NCBI GenBank assembly: GCA_021850325.1
Contig: JAJZMF010000026.1
Coordinates: 1-64,000 of the forward strand
Direction: 5' to 3'
DNA: 64,000 bases
Source: Actinomycetes bacterium
GTDB taxonomy: Bacteria > Actinomycetota > Acidimicrobiia > Acidimicrobiales > Palsa-688
The position numbers and the translations under genes are program-made. How positions within the stretch are numbered: position 1 is the first letter of the stretch; every line of letters begins with the position of its first letter. The notes beneath the pieces were generated by a model, which was given only the letters and a program-made list of their open reading frames with translations, was not told where the DNA came from and made no database searches. Shown here piece by piece: positions 53,887-60,833 of this stretch.

Positions 53887-56800
53887 TCAGGTGCGCCTGG
53901 TCGTGGGCCGCGTCGTGCTCGTGGTCGCGGTAGTTGTGGTGGGGTGCGTCGTGGTGGGGCGCGTCGTGGTCGACGTGGGGCCCGAAGCCCGCGGCTGCGC
54001 CCGGGTAGCCAGGGCGACAGCGGCCTCGCCGGCCTGCACGTCGGCCTGGTAGGTGCCAAGGTCGCCCTGGGCGAGAGCAGCCTTGGCGAGTGCGAAGTCC
54101 TGCTCGGCGACCTGGAGGTCGTGAGCGACGGCCCCAGGGCCGGCGGCTACGGGCACACCCGTGGTCGTGGTCCTCACGGGTGGGCTGGTCCTGGTGACCC
54201 GGGGGGTGGTCGTAGTGGTCGTAGACGATGGCTGCCTGGAGCGCCCGGGGCTGGCGGTGGGTGGGTTACCGGTGGAGGAGGGCTGGGGTGCCTGGGCCGG
54301 GCACAGGGCAGCAAAGGGCCTTACCCCGTTGACCTGCACCCGGCACAGGGCGCCGTACACCGTCGGAGGGTTGCCCTGTCCCGAGTCAAAGGCCTTGCCG
54401 TCGTAGACGACGATCACATCGGCCAACCTGGGCGCTGTGGCCCCCTGGTTCGAGGTGCTGGGCTCCACGTACAGCGGCTGGAAGTACAGCAGGGTCTGGC
54501 CCAGTGGGACCATGGCCAGGTTGCCCAGGACCACCTTGGAGCCGTTCTGGTCCAGGAGGCTGATCTCCTCGGATATGGCCGTGTTCGTGAGCACTGCATT
54601 GGCCACATTGGACGGCCCGTAGACCGTGTGGCCGGCGGGGATCGTATAGACCGTGAGCTGGCCGTAGTCGTTGGGGTCGGACGAGGCCGTCATGAACGCG
54701 GTCAGGTTGGGCTTGTCACCGCTCGATGCTGGCGCAAAGGGCTGTACCAGCACGAAGCTCTGCTGTGCCGGGGCCTGGCCCGGGAGTGCGGTCAGCTCGT
54801 ACACGGGCGAGACAGCCCGCGATGAGGCTGTCCCTGCGCCCAGGGCACCCCCTGCCGCGCCGGACAGTTCCGAGGCCGCCGGGTCCTGTGGGATGCCCCA
54901 GGCGAGGGAGGAGGTGTAGAACACGCTGGCCTGTTGCTGGTGGTACGTCGCGTACATGTTGGTCTGTACCGTGAACAGGTCGCGGGGGTAGCGCCAGTGG
55001 GACGTGATGCCCGGTATGTCGGCGTTCGCCCGGGACATCGGCGTGAAGAGCCGTGGGAAGGCGCTCTCGTAGGCCTGGACGACAGGGTCCGTAGGGTCGG
55101 CGACGAAGAACCACATCCGGCCCGTGTAGGCGTCCACGACCGCCTTCACCGAGTTGCGCACGTAGTTGAACGGTTGGTTGCCGAGCCCCACGCCCGAGCC
55201 GGGCAGGCGCCCGGTGTTGGCCTGCTGGGAGTAGGGGTAGTTGTCGGTGGTGGTGTAGGCGTCCTCCACCCAGTAGAGGCGCCCGGAGAGGATGACCGGG
55301 TAGGGGTGGCTGTCGTAGGCGAGGAAGGGCGCCGCCTGGTGCAGCCGCTGCACCACATTGCGGTAGTACAGGACCCTCGAGGTCGAGGTGACCTGACCGG
55401 AAAGGAGGAAGTTGGCGTCACCGAAGCTGACGGCGAACGCCAGGCGTCGGAAGAACCCGCCCGCCGGCACCCCACCGTTGCCGTTGTAGTGGTTCGTGGC
55501 TTCAGCGTTGGTGGCCGGGTCCTGGTAGTCGACTTCGGGCTGGTTCGACCCGGCGATTATGTACCCCTGGGTTGAGCCGGGGTTGGTGCCGAAGTAGACG
55601 CGCGGTTGGACGTTGAGCGCCGGCTGGCCGGTGGTCGGGATGTCCGAGAGCGAGAAGTTGGGGTACCCGGCGGAGGTGATGCCGGCCTGGTCGGCCGGAG
55701 CGACGACCGCCCCGTAGCCGTGGGTGAACTCCAGGTGCTGGTTCACCCATGTCTGCGGCGCGCCACTGGAATTGAGCTCACGGGCCGAGATCAGCACCGG
55801 GGTCTCCTGCGCCTTGGAGCTCGTCCCGGTGACGAGGTCGTACCGGTCGATGCTCGGGCCGCTCATCGTGAAGTAACCCCGGAAGCCCTGCAGGCGGGTG
55901 AAGATCTTGTTGATATCGGCCGTCCCCGCGTCCAGGAGGGCGACATTGGCCAGGCTCTGGCGGTAGGCCACAGCCTGGGCCGAGCCACCTGTCAGCGTCC
56001 CGGGCGCGATGGTCGGGCTGCCCTGGAAGGTCTGCGTGGTCACGCCACCCAGGCCGTAGGCGGCGGTGGTGGCATTTATGTTGTCCTGTATGTAGGGCTG
56101 TTCCTTGACGTTCTGGCTCGGCTTGACCACCACCGACTGGACGATGGCCGGGTAGACGTTGGCCACCAGGGCCCATACCACGCCCCAGAGCACCACACCG
56201 GAGATGGGCAGCACCCATCCCTGGCGCCTCACGTTGTAGAGGAACAGGCCTGCGGCTATGGCCGAGATCGCCACGAGCAGGAGCAGGGCCGGCCCGACGG
56301 CATGCACGTCGGTGTAGGTTGCGCCGTCCACTGGCGGGTAGCGGGTGGACAGGACCAGGGAGAGGCGCTGGAGGTAGTAGTTGGCACCCTCGGTCAGCAC
56401 CATGGCGGCGAGCAGCACCGAGACGTGGGCCTTGACCCGGGGACCGACCCGGTCGGTGCTGACGTGGGGCCGGATGCCGCCGTTCAGGTAGTGGGCCACC
56501 AGGGACAACAGCAGGGCCACGACAAGGGCGGAGAAGAGCCAGTTGACGAACCAGCTGAGGAAGGGCAGCTCGAACACGTAGAAGCCGTTGTTCAGGTGGA
56601 ACAGGGGATCGGTGCTCCCCGGCCCGGTGAAGCTCTTGGCATTGGAGAACAGGAGCCAGTTGTCCCACTGGCTGTGGGCACTGGCCCCGCCCAGTCCGGC
56701 GAACAGCACGGCCAGCCCCAGGCGCAGCCATGCCCGGTGCTTCGCCATGACCAGTTGCCAGCGGGCTACCAGGTCGTCGGTGGGGCCCGGCGGGTTGGGT

Positions 56801-57078
56801 GCCAGTCGGTCGGCGAGCACGAGGTTGCCCCACACCAGCCCGAACATGAGGAGGCTGAACACGACGCCCAGCCCGAACTGGACCGTCAGCGTCTTCACCC
56901 AGACCGAGGACAGGCCGACCGAACGGAACCAGAGCAGGTCGGTGTAGAGCGAGGCCAGGCGTTGAGCGGAGGCCAGCAGCACCAGGAGCACTGCAATGGC
57001 CACCAGGACCACCAGGCGTCCCCGGTGCGTGCCCACGCCGAGCCGGCTGGGTATGTCTGACGGCGCGCGCATCGGCAT
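53887..57078 (-). CDS. UPF0182-family large membrane protein
   Basis: A 1063-residue protein. The first ~330 residues contain about seven membrane helices (GRLVVLVAIAVLLVLLASAQ, FGLGVVFSLLMFGLVWGNLV and others); the rest is a large domain outside with KPSQNVKEQPYIQDNINATT, the family block, and TEIPVLISARELN-like strands. A Thr/Pro-rich tail of about 110 residues ends it. UPF0182 proteins are common in actinobacteria and cyanobacteria and are uncharacterised. In mycobacteria the gene neighbours the PDZ/Lon-type protease, as here but with one gene between. TAAGCT (57084-57089) lies five bases upstream of ATG 57078; ATG 57072 is an alternative. Confidence 0.9.
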   Translation of the reverse strand: MPMRAPSDIPSRLGVGTHRGRLVVLVAIAVLLVLLASAQRLASLYTDLLWFRSVGLSSVWVKTLTVQFGLGVVFSLLMFGLVWGNLVLADRLAPNPPGPTDDLVARWQLVMAKHRAWLRLGLAVLFAGLGGASAHSQWDNWLLFSNAKSFTGPGSTDPLFHLNNGFYVFELPFLSWFVNWLFSALVVALLLSLVAHYLNGGIRPHVSTDRVGPRVKAHVSVLLAAMVLTEGANYYLQRLSLVLSTRYPPVDGATYTDVHAVGPALLLLVAISAIAAGLFLYNVRRQGWVLPISGVVLWGVVWALVANVYPAIVQSVVVKPSQNVKEQPYIQDNINATTAAYGLGGVTTQTFQGSPTIAPGTLTGGSAQAVAYRQSLANVALLDAGTADINKIFTRLQGFRGYFTMSGPSIDRYDLVTGTSSKAQETPVLISARELNSSGAPQTWVNQHLEFTHGYGAVVAPADQAGITSAGYPNFSLSDIPTTGQPALNVQPRVYFGTNPGSTQGYIIAGSNQPEVDYQDPATNAEATNHYNGNGGVPAGGFFRRLAFAVSFGDANFLLSGQVTSTSRVLYYRNVVQRLHQAAPFLAYDSHPYPVILSGRLYWVEDAYTTTDNYPYSQQANTGRLPGSGVGLGNQPFNYVRNSVKAVVDAYTGRMWFFVADPTDPVVQAYESAFPRLFTPMSRANADIPGITSHWRYPRDLFTVQTNMYATYHQQQASVFYTSSLAWGIPQDPAASELSGAAGGALGAGTASSRAVSPVYELTALPGQAPAQQSFVLVQPFAPASSGDKPNLTAFMTASSDPNDYGQLTVYTIPAGHTVYGPSNVANAVLTNTAISEEISLLDQNGSKVVLGNLAMVPLGQTLLYFQPLYVEPSTSNQGATAPRLADVIVVYDGKAFDSGQGNPPTVYGALCRVQVNGVRPFAALCPAQAPQPSSTGNPPTASPGRSRQPSSTTTTTTPRVTRTSPPVRTTTTGVPVAAGPGAVAHDLQVAEQDFALAKAALAQGDLGTYQADVQAGEAAVALATRAQPRASGPTSTTTRPTTTHPTTTTATTSTTRPTTRRT

Positions 57079-57083
57079 GTGGG

Positions 57084-57089
57084 AGCTTA
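57084..57089 (-). promoter_or_regulatory. -10 box (TAAGCT) of the UPF0182 gene
   Basis: TANNNT hexamer five bases before ATG 57078 or eleven before ATG 57072 on the reverse strand. Confidence 0.35.
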
Positions 57090-57144
57090 TTGTCCAGGGT
57101 GCTCAGCGCGTGGGCAGGGGAGGGCCGTCCTACGTCCTCGGCGG

Positions 57145-59583
57145 TCAGGCCTGGCCGTGACCGGCGCTCCCCGCAGCGGTGCCCCCGACGACCCGGGCGA
57201 GCGCGCAACGGCAGCCCGGGTGGGCCGGCGGGTACAACTGGCCCGTCGGCCAGGCCTCGCCCTTGCGCTGTGCGCCCGCCAGCGAGTTGTCGTCACAGTC
57301 GGGGCATGGGCCTTCATCCTCGCTGACCACCCACTGCAACATGGCGCCGTCAGGGAATGCCAGGTAGGCCCCCCGCGAGAACGCCGCGGCCACCTGGTCG
57401 TGGGCGGTCGCCTCGATCCGCTGGGTCTTCCATTCCCGGTAGGCGACCCCCAGGGCGTCGGCGACCTCGGCGCTGTCCTCACCGGCCGCGCTGAAGGCGG
57501 CCTCGAGGCGCTGGCGCAGTGGCCCGGCGATGGCCCTTCCCAGCTCTTCGGCCAGGTCCTCCACCAGCTCGGGACCGCCCGCCAGGCTCGTGCCGGTGCC
57601 GGCATAGACATCCCCGACCAGGGCGGCGCCGCTCCGGGCGGCCTCTTCGAGCAGCGGCCGGCCCACCTCAATGAAGCGGTCAGGCTGCTCCTCGGCGCTG
57701 GGGAGCGTGCCTGCCGCCGTAGGCGCGCCCTTGGTGCTGCGCAGGCGGTCCAGGAGGGAGTTCTGCTCGTCCTGCAGGGCTCTTTTGAGCTTGCGGGCGA
57801 GAGAAGCCTCCAGCCGGGTGGTCAACTGGTCACGGCGGGCGAAGAAGTCGGCCTGGGCGGCGGTGAGGGCGCGTTCCCGGAGCTCCTCGTCGGGGCCCGG
57901 GGCCGGTGCCGTCGGGAGGGCCTCCGCCCGGGCGCTGTCATCCCCGTGCACGCCCGCAGGAGCTTCCGCACCGGCCGGGCCCGACAGCGCCCGACGGGCG
58001 GAGGATGCCGCTTCCTCCCGTCCCGCACGTATCCGGGCGAACAGGCTCTGGACATCGCGCGGCTCGTCGCCTTGTGGCGTCGCCTCGCTGCCTCCCTCGC
58101 CCTCGCCCTCGCCCTCGCCGGCCTCGGCTCGGCCGGCCGCGCCCTCATCGGCCTCGCCCCCGCCGGCCTCGGCTCGGCCGGGGCGGGCGGGGGAGGCGAG
58201 GGCCTCGGCGTCGGGCTGGGCGGGCCCCGGAGCCGGAGCGCCTCTCTCGGGGCCCCCGGCCGCCCCGGGTGCTCCTGCCTCCTGCTTGCTGTCCCCTGGG
58301 CCGCCGTGCCCGGTCTCTGCATGCCCAGGGCTGCCTGCCCCCGGAGGGGGCGCGGCTTCGTTGTGCCTCTCCCTTCTCGGGGTGGTGGCGGGGGCTGCGC
58401 CTCTCAGGACCCGGACGCTTTCGACGACGTCACCCGGAGCCGAGCTGTCGAAGCCCGTGCCCGCCTGGTGGCGGGCGGCAGCCGGAGCATTGCTCCGGGA
58501 GGGCGCAGGTGCCACGCCCGGTCCCTGTTCCTCACCCGAGGGGCGGGGCTGCAACGTGCGGGCGGCCATCTCCGAGGCCTTGGGCGCCATGACGACGGGC
58601 GTGGTGGGGGGCTGGGCAGCCCCGGCCTTCGGTGGGGGCTCGGCTGCGGCGACCTGGGAAGGGTTCGCCCCGGCGGGCGCCGAGGCACGTCCCCCGGCGG
58701 CTGGGACCGGGGCCGGCTGCTCCTTCTGGTCACCGGCCCGGACGGGCGAAGGCTGCTCCTGCCCCGCGGGGGGACCGGCCGGCCAGGTCTCCTCGGTGCG
58801 AAGGTCGAGCGGTCCCCCCGCCTCGGCAGTGTGCTGCTGGCCGACCGCTTCCGACGCAGCCCTGGCTTCGGCGTCCGCCTTCTGCAGCTCGTCTGTGACC
58901 TCGTCGAGCGTCCTGCGCACCACGAGGTAGGCGTCGAGGAGCCGCTCCCGACCAGCCCGGAGCTGCTCGATCTGCACCATGGCCAGCTTGCGCCGGCGGG
59001 CGAGGTCGCTCAGTACCTTCTCGCGCAGGGCGCGGGCGGCCTCGACCATCTCGTCGTGAGCCGCGCGGCCCTCTGCCTCGAGGCGGGTACGCTCCGCCTG
59101 CGCTTCCTCACGCAGGGCGCCTGCCTCGGCCTCGGCGGTTGCCAGCTGGGCCGCGGCCGCTTCCTCGGCTTCCGCCAACCTCGATGCGAGGACCGAGCTC
59201 GCCTCGGCCAGCAGCCCTTCGGCCCGGGCCTGGGCGGAGCCCAGCGCCTCCTTGGCCGACGCCTCAGCCTTGGCCACTATCTCCTGAGCTGCGCTCCGGG
59301 CGCTGCGCAGGATCTGGGCCGTTTCCTCGCCCACCGCCGCCATCAGGGTGGCTTCGTCCAACCGGGGGTGCATCGCTCTTTGCTCGGCTTCCCGGCGAGC
59401 GGTCTCGGCTGCGTCGTAACGCTCTCTCAGTGAGCGCACCTGCGCAGCCACCTGGGCCAGGAAGTCGCGCACCTCCTCGGGGTCGAAGCCGCGCCAGGCC
59501 TGCCCGAACCGGCGCCCGGCTATGAGCTCCGCCGACATGTCCGTCAGGTCGCTGGTCCGGGGCACGAGGCGGTCGTTGGGCAT
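57145..59583 (-). CDS. DivIVA-domain coiled-coil protein fused to a phage Mu-F-like C-terminal domain
   Basis: An 812-residue protein with unusual architecture. Residues ~15-50 match the DivIVA N-terminus (AGRRFGQAWRGFDPEEVRDF: F-x-x-x-x-x-G-F-D-x-x-E-V-x-x-F-L) used to sense membrane curvature or lipids. A long coiled coil to ~250 and an Ala/Pro/Gly-rich disordered stretch to ~540 follow, then a second charged helix (~555-640). The last 170 residues end in C760-P-D-C763 ... YPPAHPGCRC (784-793), the zinc-like signature of Mu gpF/SPP1 gp7-type head-morphogenesis proteins. No phage genes surround it. Function unknown; the domain may be a protein cross-linking or ADP-ribosyltransferase-related fold. 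TAGGCT -10 box eight bases upstream of the ATG. Confidence 0.8.
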   Translation of the reverse strand: MPNDRLVPRTSDLTDMSAELIAGRRFGQAWRGFDPEEVRDFLAQVAAQVRSLRERYDAAETARREAEQRAMHPRLDEATLMAAVGEETAQILRSARSAAQEIVAKAEASAKEALGSAQARAEGLLAEASSVLASRLAEAEEAAAAQLATAEAEAGALREEAQAERTRLEAEGRAAHDEMVEAARALREKVLSDLARRRKLAMVQIEQLRAGRERLLDAYLVVRRTLDEVTDELQKADAEARAASEAVGQQHTAEAGGPLDLRTEETWPAGPPAGQEQPSPVRAGDQKEQPAPVPAAGGRASAPAGANPSQVAAAEPPPKAGAAQPPTTPVVMAPKASEMAARTLQPRPSGEEQGPGVAPAPSRSNAPAAARHQAGTGFDSSAPGDVVESVRVLRGAAPATTPRRERHNEAAPPPGAGSPGHAETGHGGPGDSKQEAGAPGAAGGPERGAPAPGPAQPDAEALASPARPGRAEAGGGEADEGAAGRAEAGEGEGEGEGGSEATPQGDEPRDVQSLFARIRAGREEAASSARRALSGPAGAEAPAGVHGDDSARAEALPTAPAPGPDEELRERALTAAQADFFARRDQLTTRLEASLARKLKRALQDEQNSLLDRLRSTKGAPTAAGTLPSAEEQPDRFIEVGRPLLEEAARSGAALVGDVYAGTGTSLAGGPELVEDLAEELGRAIAGPLRQRLEAAFSAAGEDSAEVADALGVAYREWKTQRIEATAHDQVAAAFSRGAYLAFPDGAMLQWVVSEDEGPCPDCDDNSLAGAQRKGEAWPTGQLYPPAHPGCRCALARVVGGTAAGSAGHGQA

Positions 59584-59651: not shown

Positions 59652-60833
59652 TCAGTGCCGGGGCAGGGGGCTACCCCCGAAGCGGTGCTGCAGGACGGCC
59701 AGTGCCTGGGCCAGGCTTGCGACGGGCACAACCCGGAGGCTCTTGCCGGCCAGGGGCTCGGCTTGTGAGTACTCGGCGGCGGGCACGAAGAAGATCTGAG
59801 CGCCCGCCTGGCGGACGGCCACGGTCTTCTCGCGCACCCCTCCGACCTGGCCCACGGCGCCGTCCGGGGAGATGGTGCCCGTGGCCGCGACCCGGTGCCC
59901 CCCGGTCAGGTTGCCGTTGCCCAGGCTGTCGAGGATGGCCAGGGTGAACGCCAGGCCCGCCGACGGCCCACCGATGCTGCCCGCGTTGACCGAAACCGGG
60001 AAAGGCAGCACCGGGCGCAGGTCGGTCTGCGTCTCGACCCCCAGGAACGAGCGGTCGCTGAACCCCTGGGCGACCAGCTTGGCCGGGGGGGCGGCCAGGG
60101 TGACCCTCACCTCCTGCGCCCTCCGCGTGCCACCGGGCCGGTCGGTCAGGGTCACCCGGGTGCCTGGAGCCAGGTTGGCCAGGTAGCGGGTGAGGCTGGC
60201 GGCGGTGCGGACGGGCTGGCCGTCAACGGCCGTGATGAGGTCGTTGCACTTGACCCCTGCCTCCCAGGCGGGCGAACCGGCCAGCACCCCCACCACCTGC
60301 GCGCCCAGTTCCCGGCCGCCCACGGGGTAGTGCAGCGCCTGCAGGGCGGCGAGGGCCGCGTTCTCGTTCGCGGAGCTCATCTGCTGGGCGTCCTGGCAAC
60401 CCAGCTCCGAGGCAGGGGTGTTGCCCGCGTAGGCAGCCACGGGGACCATCTCCCGCTCACGCCCGAGCAGGCCGAGCTCGTACTCCGCCCACTGCAGGGG
60501 GCTGGCCTGGCCGACCTCCACGTCCACCATCAACAGGCGCCCCGTCGAGCGGTGCGCACGGTGGGCGGGCACCTCGAGCCTGACACAGGGCGACCCGCCC
60601 GGCAAGGACAGGCTCCCCTGGTCGAGACGGCACGAGGCGCTGGTCGTGATCACCGGGGCCGTGCCCGGGGAGAAGACGAAGAACGTGCCGGCCTGGTGGA
60701 CGGCCAAGCCGGCCAGGGCCGCCACCACCGCCACCGCCGCCACCAGGGCAGGCACGGCCCCGGCCCGTCGCCGTCGGGGCCGGGGCGACGCCGGGGCCGT
60801 CCCCGCGGGTACAGTCGGCCAGATGTCGCTCAT
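59652..60833 (-). CDS. Membrane-anchored PDZ/Lon-type serine protease (YlbL family)
   Basis: A 393-residue protein: signal-anchor helix AVPALVAAVAVVAALAGLAV (26-45), a PDZ domain (about 175-245; AGSPAWEAGVKCNDLITAVD), and an S16 Lon-like peptidase domain with Ser291 (IGGPSAGLAFTLAILDSLGN) and Lys336 (GGVREKTVAVRQAGAQIFFV) as the dyad. The active site faces outward. Two cysteines and a Ser/Gly-rich stretch lie between helix and PDZ. The mycobacterial equivalent neighbours UPF0182; here the DivIVA fusion gene lies between the two. Confidence 0.9.
   Translation of the reverse strand: MSDIWPTVPAGTAPASPRPRRRRAGAVPALVAAVAVVAALAGLAVHQAGTFFVFSPGTAPVITTSASCRLDQGSLSLPGGSPCVRLEVPAHRAHRSTGRLLMVDVEVGQASPLQWAEYELGLLGREREMVPVAAYAGNTPASELGCQDAQQMSSANENAALAALQALHYPVGGRELGAQVVGVLAGSPAWEAGVKCNDLITAVDGQPVRTAASLTRYLANLAPGTRVTLTDRPGGTRRAQEVRVTLAAPPAKLVAQGFSDRSFLGVETQTDLRPVLPFPVSVNAGSIGGPSAGLAFTLAILDSLGNGNLTGGHRVAATGTISPDGAVGQVGGVREKTVAVRQAGAQIFFVPAAEYSQAEPLAGKSLRVVPVASLAQALAVLQHRFGGSPLPRH

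Follow-up and report, generated by a model that had tools for sequence, protein, structure and literature searches.

The protein encoded on the minus strand at 57145..59583 of the window (the whole stretch of 64,000 nucleotides analysed, positions 1 to 64,000 of contig JAJZMF010000026.1) joins a DivIVA membrane-targeting N-terminus to a C-terminal module homologous to the MuF head-morphogenesis proteins of phages, and its gene is directly followed by that of a UPF0182 membrane protein. We observe that the fusion is ancient and vertically inherited across several actinobacterial classes, with a confidently predicted MuF fold and a fixed gene pairing. Both domains are already known, and the fusion is best described as a DivIVA-family scaffold carrying a domesticated phage domain. 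MuF domains have been described almost exclusively in phages and prophages (PMC5576092), and no papers joining DivIVA with MuF, or DivIVA with Acidimicrobiia, were found among the open-access papers searched. Papers pairing DivIVA with head morphogenesis were judged unrelated on the basis of their titles and abstracts. The features of the locus are as follows.

57145..59583, minus strand: DivIVA-MuF fusion gene, 812 aa (ORF translation, profile matches, orthologues)
59371..59583, minus strand: residues 1-71, DivIVA membrane-targeting head (PF05103, TIGR03544, model, alignment to 2wuj)
58831..59370, minus strand: residues 72-251, long helix/coiled coil (full-length model)
58054..58830, minus strand: residues 252-510, Pro/Ala/Glu/Gly-rich linker, predicted disordered (pLDDT mostly <50, composition)
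57982..58053, minus strand: residues 511-534, short helix with conserved V-x-x-L-F-A-R-I-R (conservation, model)
57190..57894, minus strand: residues 564-798, MuF-like module, a helical bundle with a small Cys-rich beta end
57202..57306, minus strand: residues 760-794, C-x2-C and P-P-x-H-x-G-C-x-C, presumed metal site (conservation)
53887..57078, minus strand: UPF0182 membrane protein, 1063 aa, next gene downstream after 66 bases (PF03699, 4.9e-230)
59652..60833, minus strand: PDZ-Lon (S16) protease, 393 aa, next gene upstream after 68 bases (PDZ and Lon_C)

The fusion ORF runs from an ATG at 59583 to 57145 with no internal stop and is present in a single copy in the source genome, where the genome profile search returned one MuF match in all. 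A second protein scoring over the DivIVA cut-off, of the ordinary kind, is encoded elsewhere in the same genome (an open frame of 375 aa on contig C12). An antisense ORF at 57079-59433 on the plus strand was rejected as a real gene, being a high-GC by-product, with conservation following the minus strand.

The initial annotation had read the N-terminus as DivIVA from the sequence, and the profiles bear this out: PF05103 (Pfam) scores 44.2 bits against a cut-off of 28 (E = 2.4e-11, residues 21-127), TIGR03544 (NCBIfam, DivI1A domain) exceeds its own cut-off at residues 17-48, and the domain is found in all 34 full-length orthologues at E up to 0.01. The best solved-structure matches of the N-terminus are 2wuj, 2wuk and 7o39, with 2wuj, a DivIVA structure, at the top. 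DivIVA heads bind curved membrane, and it is solely the DivIVA domain that suggests a polar or septal location for the fusion protein. In the alignment to 2wuj, W30-R31 fall on Phe17-Arg18 of Bacillus subtilis DivIVA, so that a hydrophobic residue (W30, opposite F17) occupies the lipid-inserting loop, a position that not all orthologues keep as such; a role in lipid binding has been reported for Phe17 (PMC7340271). The full-length model has a pLDDT of 69 overall and was hence read region by region. It shows a short loop region and helix at the N-terminus, a single helix predicted at 86-251 behind the DivIVA head (pLDDT about 83 to 91), disorder up to residue 510, the 511-534 helix bearing LFARIR, and a confident MuF module at 564-798. 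The fusion shares with DivIVA/Wag31 (PF05103, TIGR03544) and GpsB the crossed-loop head with G-[YF]-D-x2-E-V-x2-F and the coiled coil behind it, but is far longer than these proteins and adds the disordered linker, the LFAR(I/L)R element and the MuF head.

The linker element V-x-x-L-F-A-R-[IL]-R is probably a binding motif. The pattern occurs in 98 of 113 ORFs of the class, persists in loci that have lost the MuF head and was not found in loci outside the class. LFARIR as a genome-wide motif was rejected, since the degenerate pattern matches three places, of which one is the fusion gene itself, a second reads LFASIR inside an ABC-transporter ORF, and the third lies opposite another ORF, none of the others being such a motif in a recognised gene.

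Of the two Pfam profiles proposed for checking at the outset, the DivIVA profile scored over its cut-off, while for the C-terminus PF04233 (Phage_Mu_F) matched residues 704-795 with only 20.9 bits (E = 6.3e-4), below its cut-off of 29.6, and with 26.3 bits in the genome search. Matches to TIGR01641 (NCBIfam, SPP1 gp7; 1.6e-3) and to the head-morphogenesis families of PHROGs (6e-4) were similarly weak. Because the Pfam match is sub-threshold, we claim fold-level homology rather than Pfam membership, and a single-sequence profile search is by itself insufficient to settle the identity of the module. It is settled by a 45-sequence alignment, a confident fold and a viral fold search. The 235-aa module, modelled alone by AlphaFold with 45 orthologues, reaches a pLDDT of 90.6 and has 24 invariant columns. 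In the viral fold search, 64 models matched with E values no higher than 0.001, the lowest being 1.7e-6. The leading matches extend over the entire module (TMq 0.73-0.75), and those that carry a name are for the most part portal (including portal-MuF), head-morphogenesis and minor capsid proteins. Searches of solved structures (PDB) with the MuF model and with profiles gave no meaningful match, and a single-sequence phage search, with E values of 8e-5 to 2e-2 only, was superseded by the alignment. The homology of the C-terminus to MuF domains is therefore established despite the sub-threshold single-sequence Pfam score, and the fold that might have proved unrelated to Mu gpF did not.

Phage contigs encode relatives across the same span (e.g., query residues 2-230 in L124). 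Four of these contigs were inspected, and in them the relatives adjoin genes for portal, terminase or head proteins; none of 80 viral ORFs has the DivIVA N-terminus of the fusion family. Phage MuF proteins (Mu gpF, SPP1 gp7; PF04233, TIGR01641, PHROG 2468/4728), with which we group portal-MuF fusions such as Arthrobacter phage Sonali gp3 as a comparable system, have the same whole-module fold and helix order and share with the cellular head the end C-x2-C ... P-P-x-H-x-G-C-x-C, reading like DERVCPTCGPLNGK...YPPAHPGCRCFV in phages and GPCPDCDDNSLAG...YPPAHPGCRCAL in the cellular fusion. A close phage architecture for comparison is found at L124:4510-6693, where a portal protein carries a MuF module fused to it. 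In contrast to phage MuF, the cellular gene is chromosomal, has no adjoining portal or terminase gene and no toxin, and its head sits at the C-terminus of a DivIVA protein. No toxin domain lies behind the module, which ends at about residue 798 of 812 with no other Pfam domain present. Since the neighbours encode PDZ-Lon and UPF0182 rather than portal or terminase, we regard the module as a domain homologue and not as a phage head protein.

The Cys/His motifs noted initially are present in the window protein as C760-P-D-C763 and P785-P786-A-H788-P-G-C791-R-C793, and the final C-x-C, whose lack of conservation would have counted against a MuF reading, is retained in 144 of 145 orthologous modules. 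All four cysteines are found in 106 of the 145; the second is missing in 24 and the first in 13, so that one cysteine of the first pair is absent from about a quarter, and the whole Cys end has been lost in some lineages. A new nearby cysteine, located either ahead of the first-strand Trp or within the following loop, occurs in 19 of the 24 modules without the second cysteine and in 2 of the 106 intact ones (loss with a new close cysteine: L027, L096, L098-L101, L109, L112, L256-L258, L260, L262, L263, L270, L271, L277, L278 and L280). The replacement is no more than suggestive of a moved metal ligand, since only about 2 independent events are supported and the events are related. With that number of events it was not accepted as proof of a metal site. 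Metal binding by the putative Cys site is likely. The suggestion that the head might modify proteins was not upheld, as no catalytic signature or other sign of an enzyme was found and MuF in phages serves as a structural domain that binds the portal.

With the window sequence alone as query, 231 of 395 genomes of the class match, and with the alignment as query the fusion is present in a single copy in at least 142 of 197 class genomes that are at least 90% complete, a lower bound given that two inspected "negatives" (L230 and L236) carry the gene with its Cys end. The fusion, whose spread within Acidimicrobiia had been raised as a check, is thus found in most of the class and in other classes too. 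A phylum-wide draw of 397 genomes gave 54 with a match, including 18 that lie outside the class (families f69, f91, f93, f96, f98 and f117). A DivIVA-type N-terminus is seen in most of the full-length outside-class loci (L198, L199, L200, L202, L204, L205, L207 and L215), while L201 and L203 are without the DivIVA loop motif in the frame read, and the N-terminus is ambiguous in f91 and in short outside-class loci. The fusion is also carried by a contig of a named isolate record, Acidiferrimicrobium sp. IK (L041). In the tree, a single branch with support of 100/99 separates the cellular MuF domains from those of phages; the long branches within the cellular set and the placement of families f31 and f36 are unsure.

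With respect to gene neighbourhood, the order in the window is PDZ-Lon, fusion and UPF0182, all on the minus strand. The earlier description of the neighbours as envelope rather than phage genes holds, with the fusion tied to UPF0182: this gene lies directly downstream on the same strand in all 69 loci with room for it, at an estimated median gap of about 19 bases. UPF0182 is present in 188 of 197 class genomes, and the only MuF-positive genome without it (G036) has a contig that ends about 20 bases behind the gene. PDZ-Lon, which in the window gives a SepM-like match below the cut-off, precedes the fusion gene on its own strand in 27 of the 41 loci, in 20 of these within about 200 bases. MuF and UPF0182 distance matrices are correlated (Mantel r = 0.68, with 0 of 2000 permutations as high), which fits joint vertical descent and, partly reflecting shared phylogeny, is not alone proof of interaction. 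The link of the fusion to UPF0182 is shown by genomics, and no prophage genes were found around the fusion gene. These observations support the earlier view that the domain has been adopted for a cellular role.

The PDZ-Lon/UPF0182 gene pair of Actinomycetota has the same neighbours and strand as the fusion locus but, in other lineages, occurs without the fusion gene. UPF0182 and PDZ-Lon persist without it in many genomes, so the fusion is accessory rather than core. Seven genomes without the fusion gene (L218-L223 and L229) have PDZ-Lon abutting UPF0182, as clean natural deletions, and in L226-L228 UPF0182 has neither neighbour. Partial losses are seen as well: in L224, L225 and L232 the MuF module is gone while the DivIVA head, the coiled coil and an LFARLR, LFARIR or LFSRLR element stay in place, and in L233-L235 and L212 the MuF helices are kept and the Cys end is gone. 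That the DivIVA part and the linker motif stay when MuF is lost or reduced indicates that these are tied to the locus. Some loci have a WalK-like sensor kinase upstream of the fusion (L060:420-4255, L198:1-3401 and L199:6084-8499; also L040, L041 and L047). In L060, L198 and L199, the interval between the two genes encodes a lipoprotein-like protein of about 405 aa that matches no Pfam family, and these three proteins are homologous (BLASTP, 4e-8 and 2e-28).

We propose that a single capture brought a phage MuF module of Mu gpF/SPP1 gp7 type into an early actinobacterial lineage, where it was attached to the C-terminal side of a DivIVA coiled coil. Through its DivIVA head the protein would be anchored and clustered at pole or septum, where the membrane is curved, on the cytoplasmic side, and the coiled coil and disordered linker with LFAR(I/L)R would hold the MuF head out. 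The head would act as a Cys/His-stabilised docking module that recruits or organises the UPF0182 membrane protein, with the PDZ-Lon protease brought along at growing or dividing sites, and the protein may in this way affect growth or division. We give this full reading, including the recruitment of UPF0182 and PDZ-Lon, about an even chance. As the Cys end is lost in some lineages, a docking role cannot rest on it everywhere.

These same losses, of Cys ligands and of entire heads with the DivIVA part kept, would also suit a non-specific membrane or coiled-coil scaffold in which the MuF head is merely a stabilising or oligomerising cap without a specific partner. This is rather unlikely, given that the head has 24 invariant columns and is retained by most lineages, and it leaves the fixed position beside UPF0182 unexplained. 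The fusion could instead regulate PDZ-Lon or an envelope-stress pathway as the cytoplasmic part of a kinase/lipoprotein signalling unit, as the kinases and homologous lipoprotein-like proteins upstream in several lineages and classes, and the frequency of PDZ-Lon upstream, would suggest; yet in the window neither the kinase nor the lipoprotein directly adjoins the fusion gene, a PDZ-Lon resembling SepM would face outside and the sole constant partner is UPF0182, which makes such a role distinctly improbable. Equally doubtful, and if anything slightly more so, is a DNA tether, in which the head binds DNA and the DivIVA part ties the chromosome to pole or septum. The title of Stiege 2003 (cited in PMC5576092) describes SPP1 gp7 as DNA-binding, and the first helix of the module is net positive with invariant K/R positions, but taken as a whole the module is acidic (a net charge of -10 in the window protein and a median of -10 across 45 orthologues) and its gene partner encodes a membrane protein rather than par functions. 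A prophage remnant, misassembly or chance Cys motif is scarcely credible and is refuted by synteny and tree: although about 96% of muf genes on bacterial chromosomes lie in prophages or remnants (PMC5576092), there is no adjoining phage gene, the gene holds the same place in many lineages, including the Acidiferrimicrobium contig, and fold and phylogeny speak against it.

Returning to the docking scaffold, we know of no function for UPF0182 proteins, of which mycobacterial Rv3193c is one. A TnSeq study of the divisome mutant rv0954 lists Rv3193c with rodA, pbpA, perM and fhaB among underrepresented genes for membrane proteins (PMC8093794). SPP1 gp7 acts by docking on the portal oligomer (PMC6316719). 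By analogy, the cellular MuF head might reuse this contact by docking on an oligomeric UPF0182 ring or channel, the complex being placed at septum or pole by DivIVA; we consider this specific version unlikely. If true, a UPF0182-docking MuF would be a captured phage assembly contact within the actinobacterial growth machinery.

With one ancient cellular MuF, passed on vertically and joined to a DivIVA scaffold, the fusion clearly exemplifies a virion component recruited into cell architecture, and it appears that the cell-envelope machinery of a large actinobacterial group has incorporated an element of phage origin. The uncharacterised UPF0182 family, whose mycobacterial member has a genetic interaction with a divisome gene, gains a constant cytoplasmic partner and hence a concrete route to testing its function.
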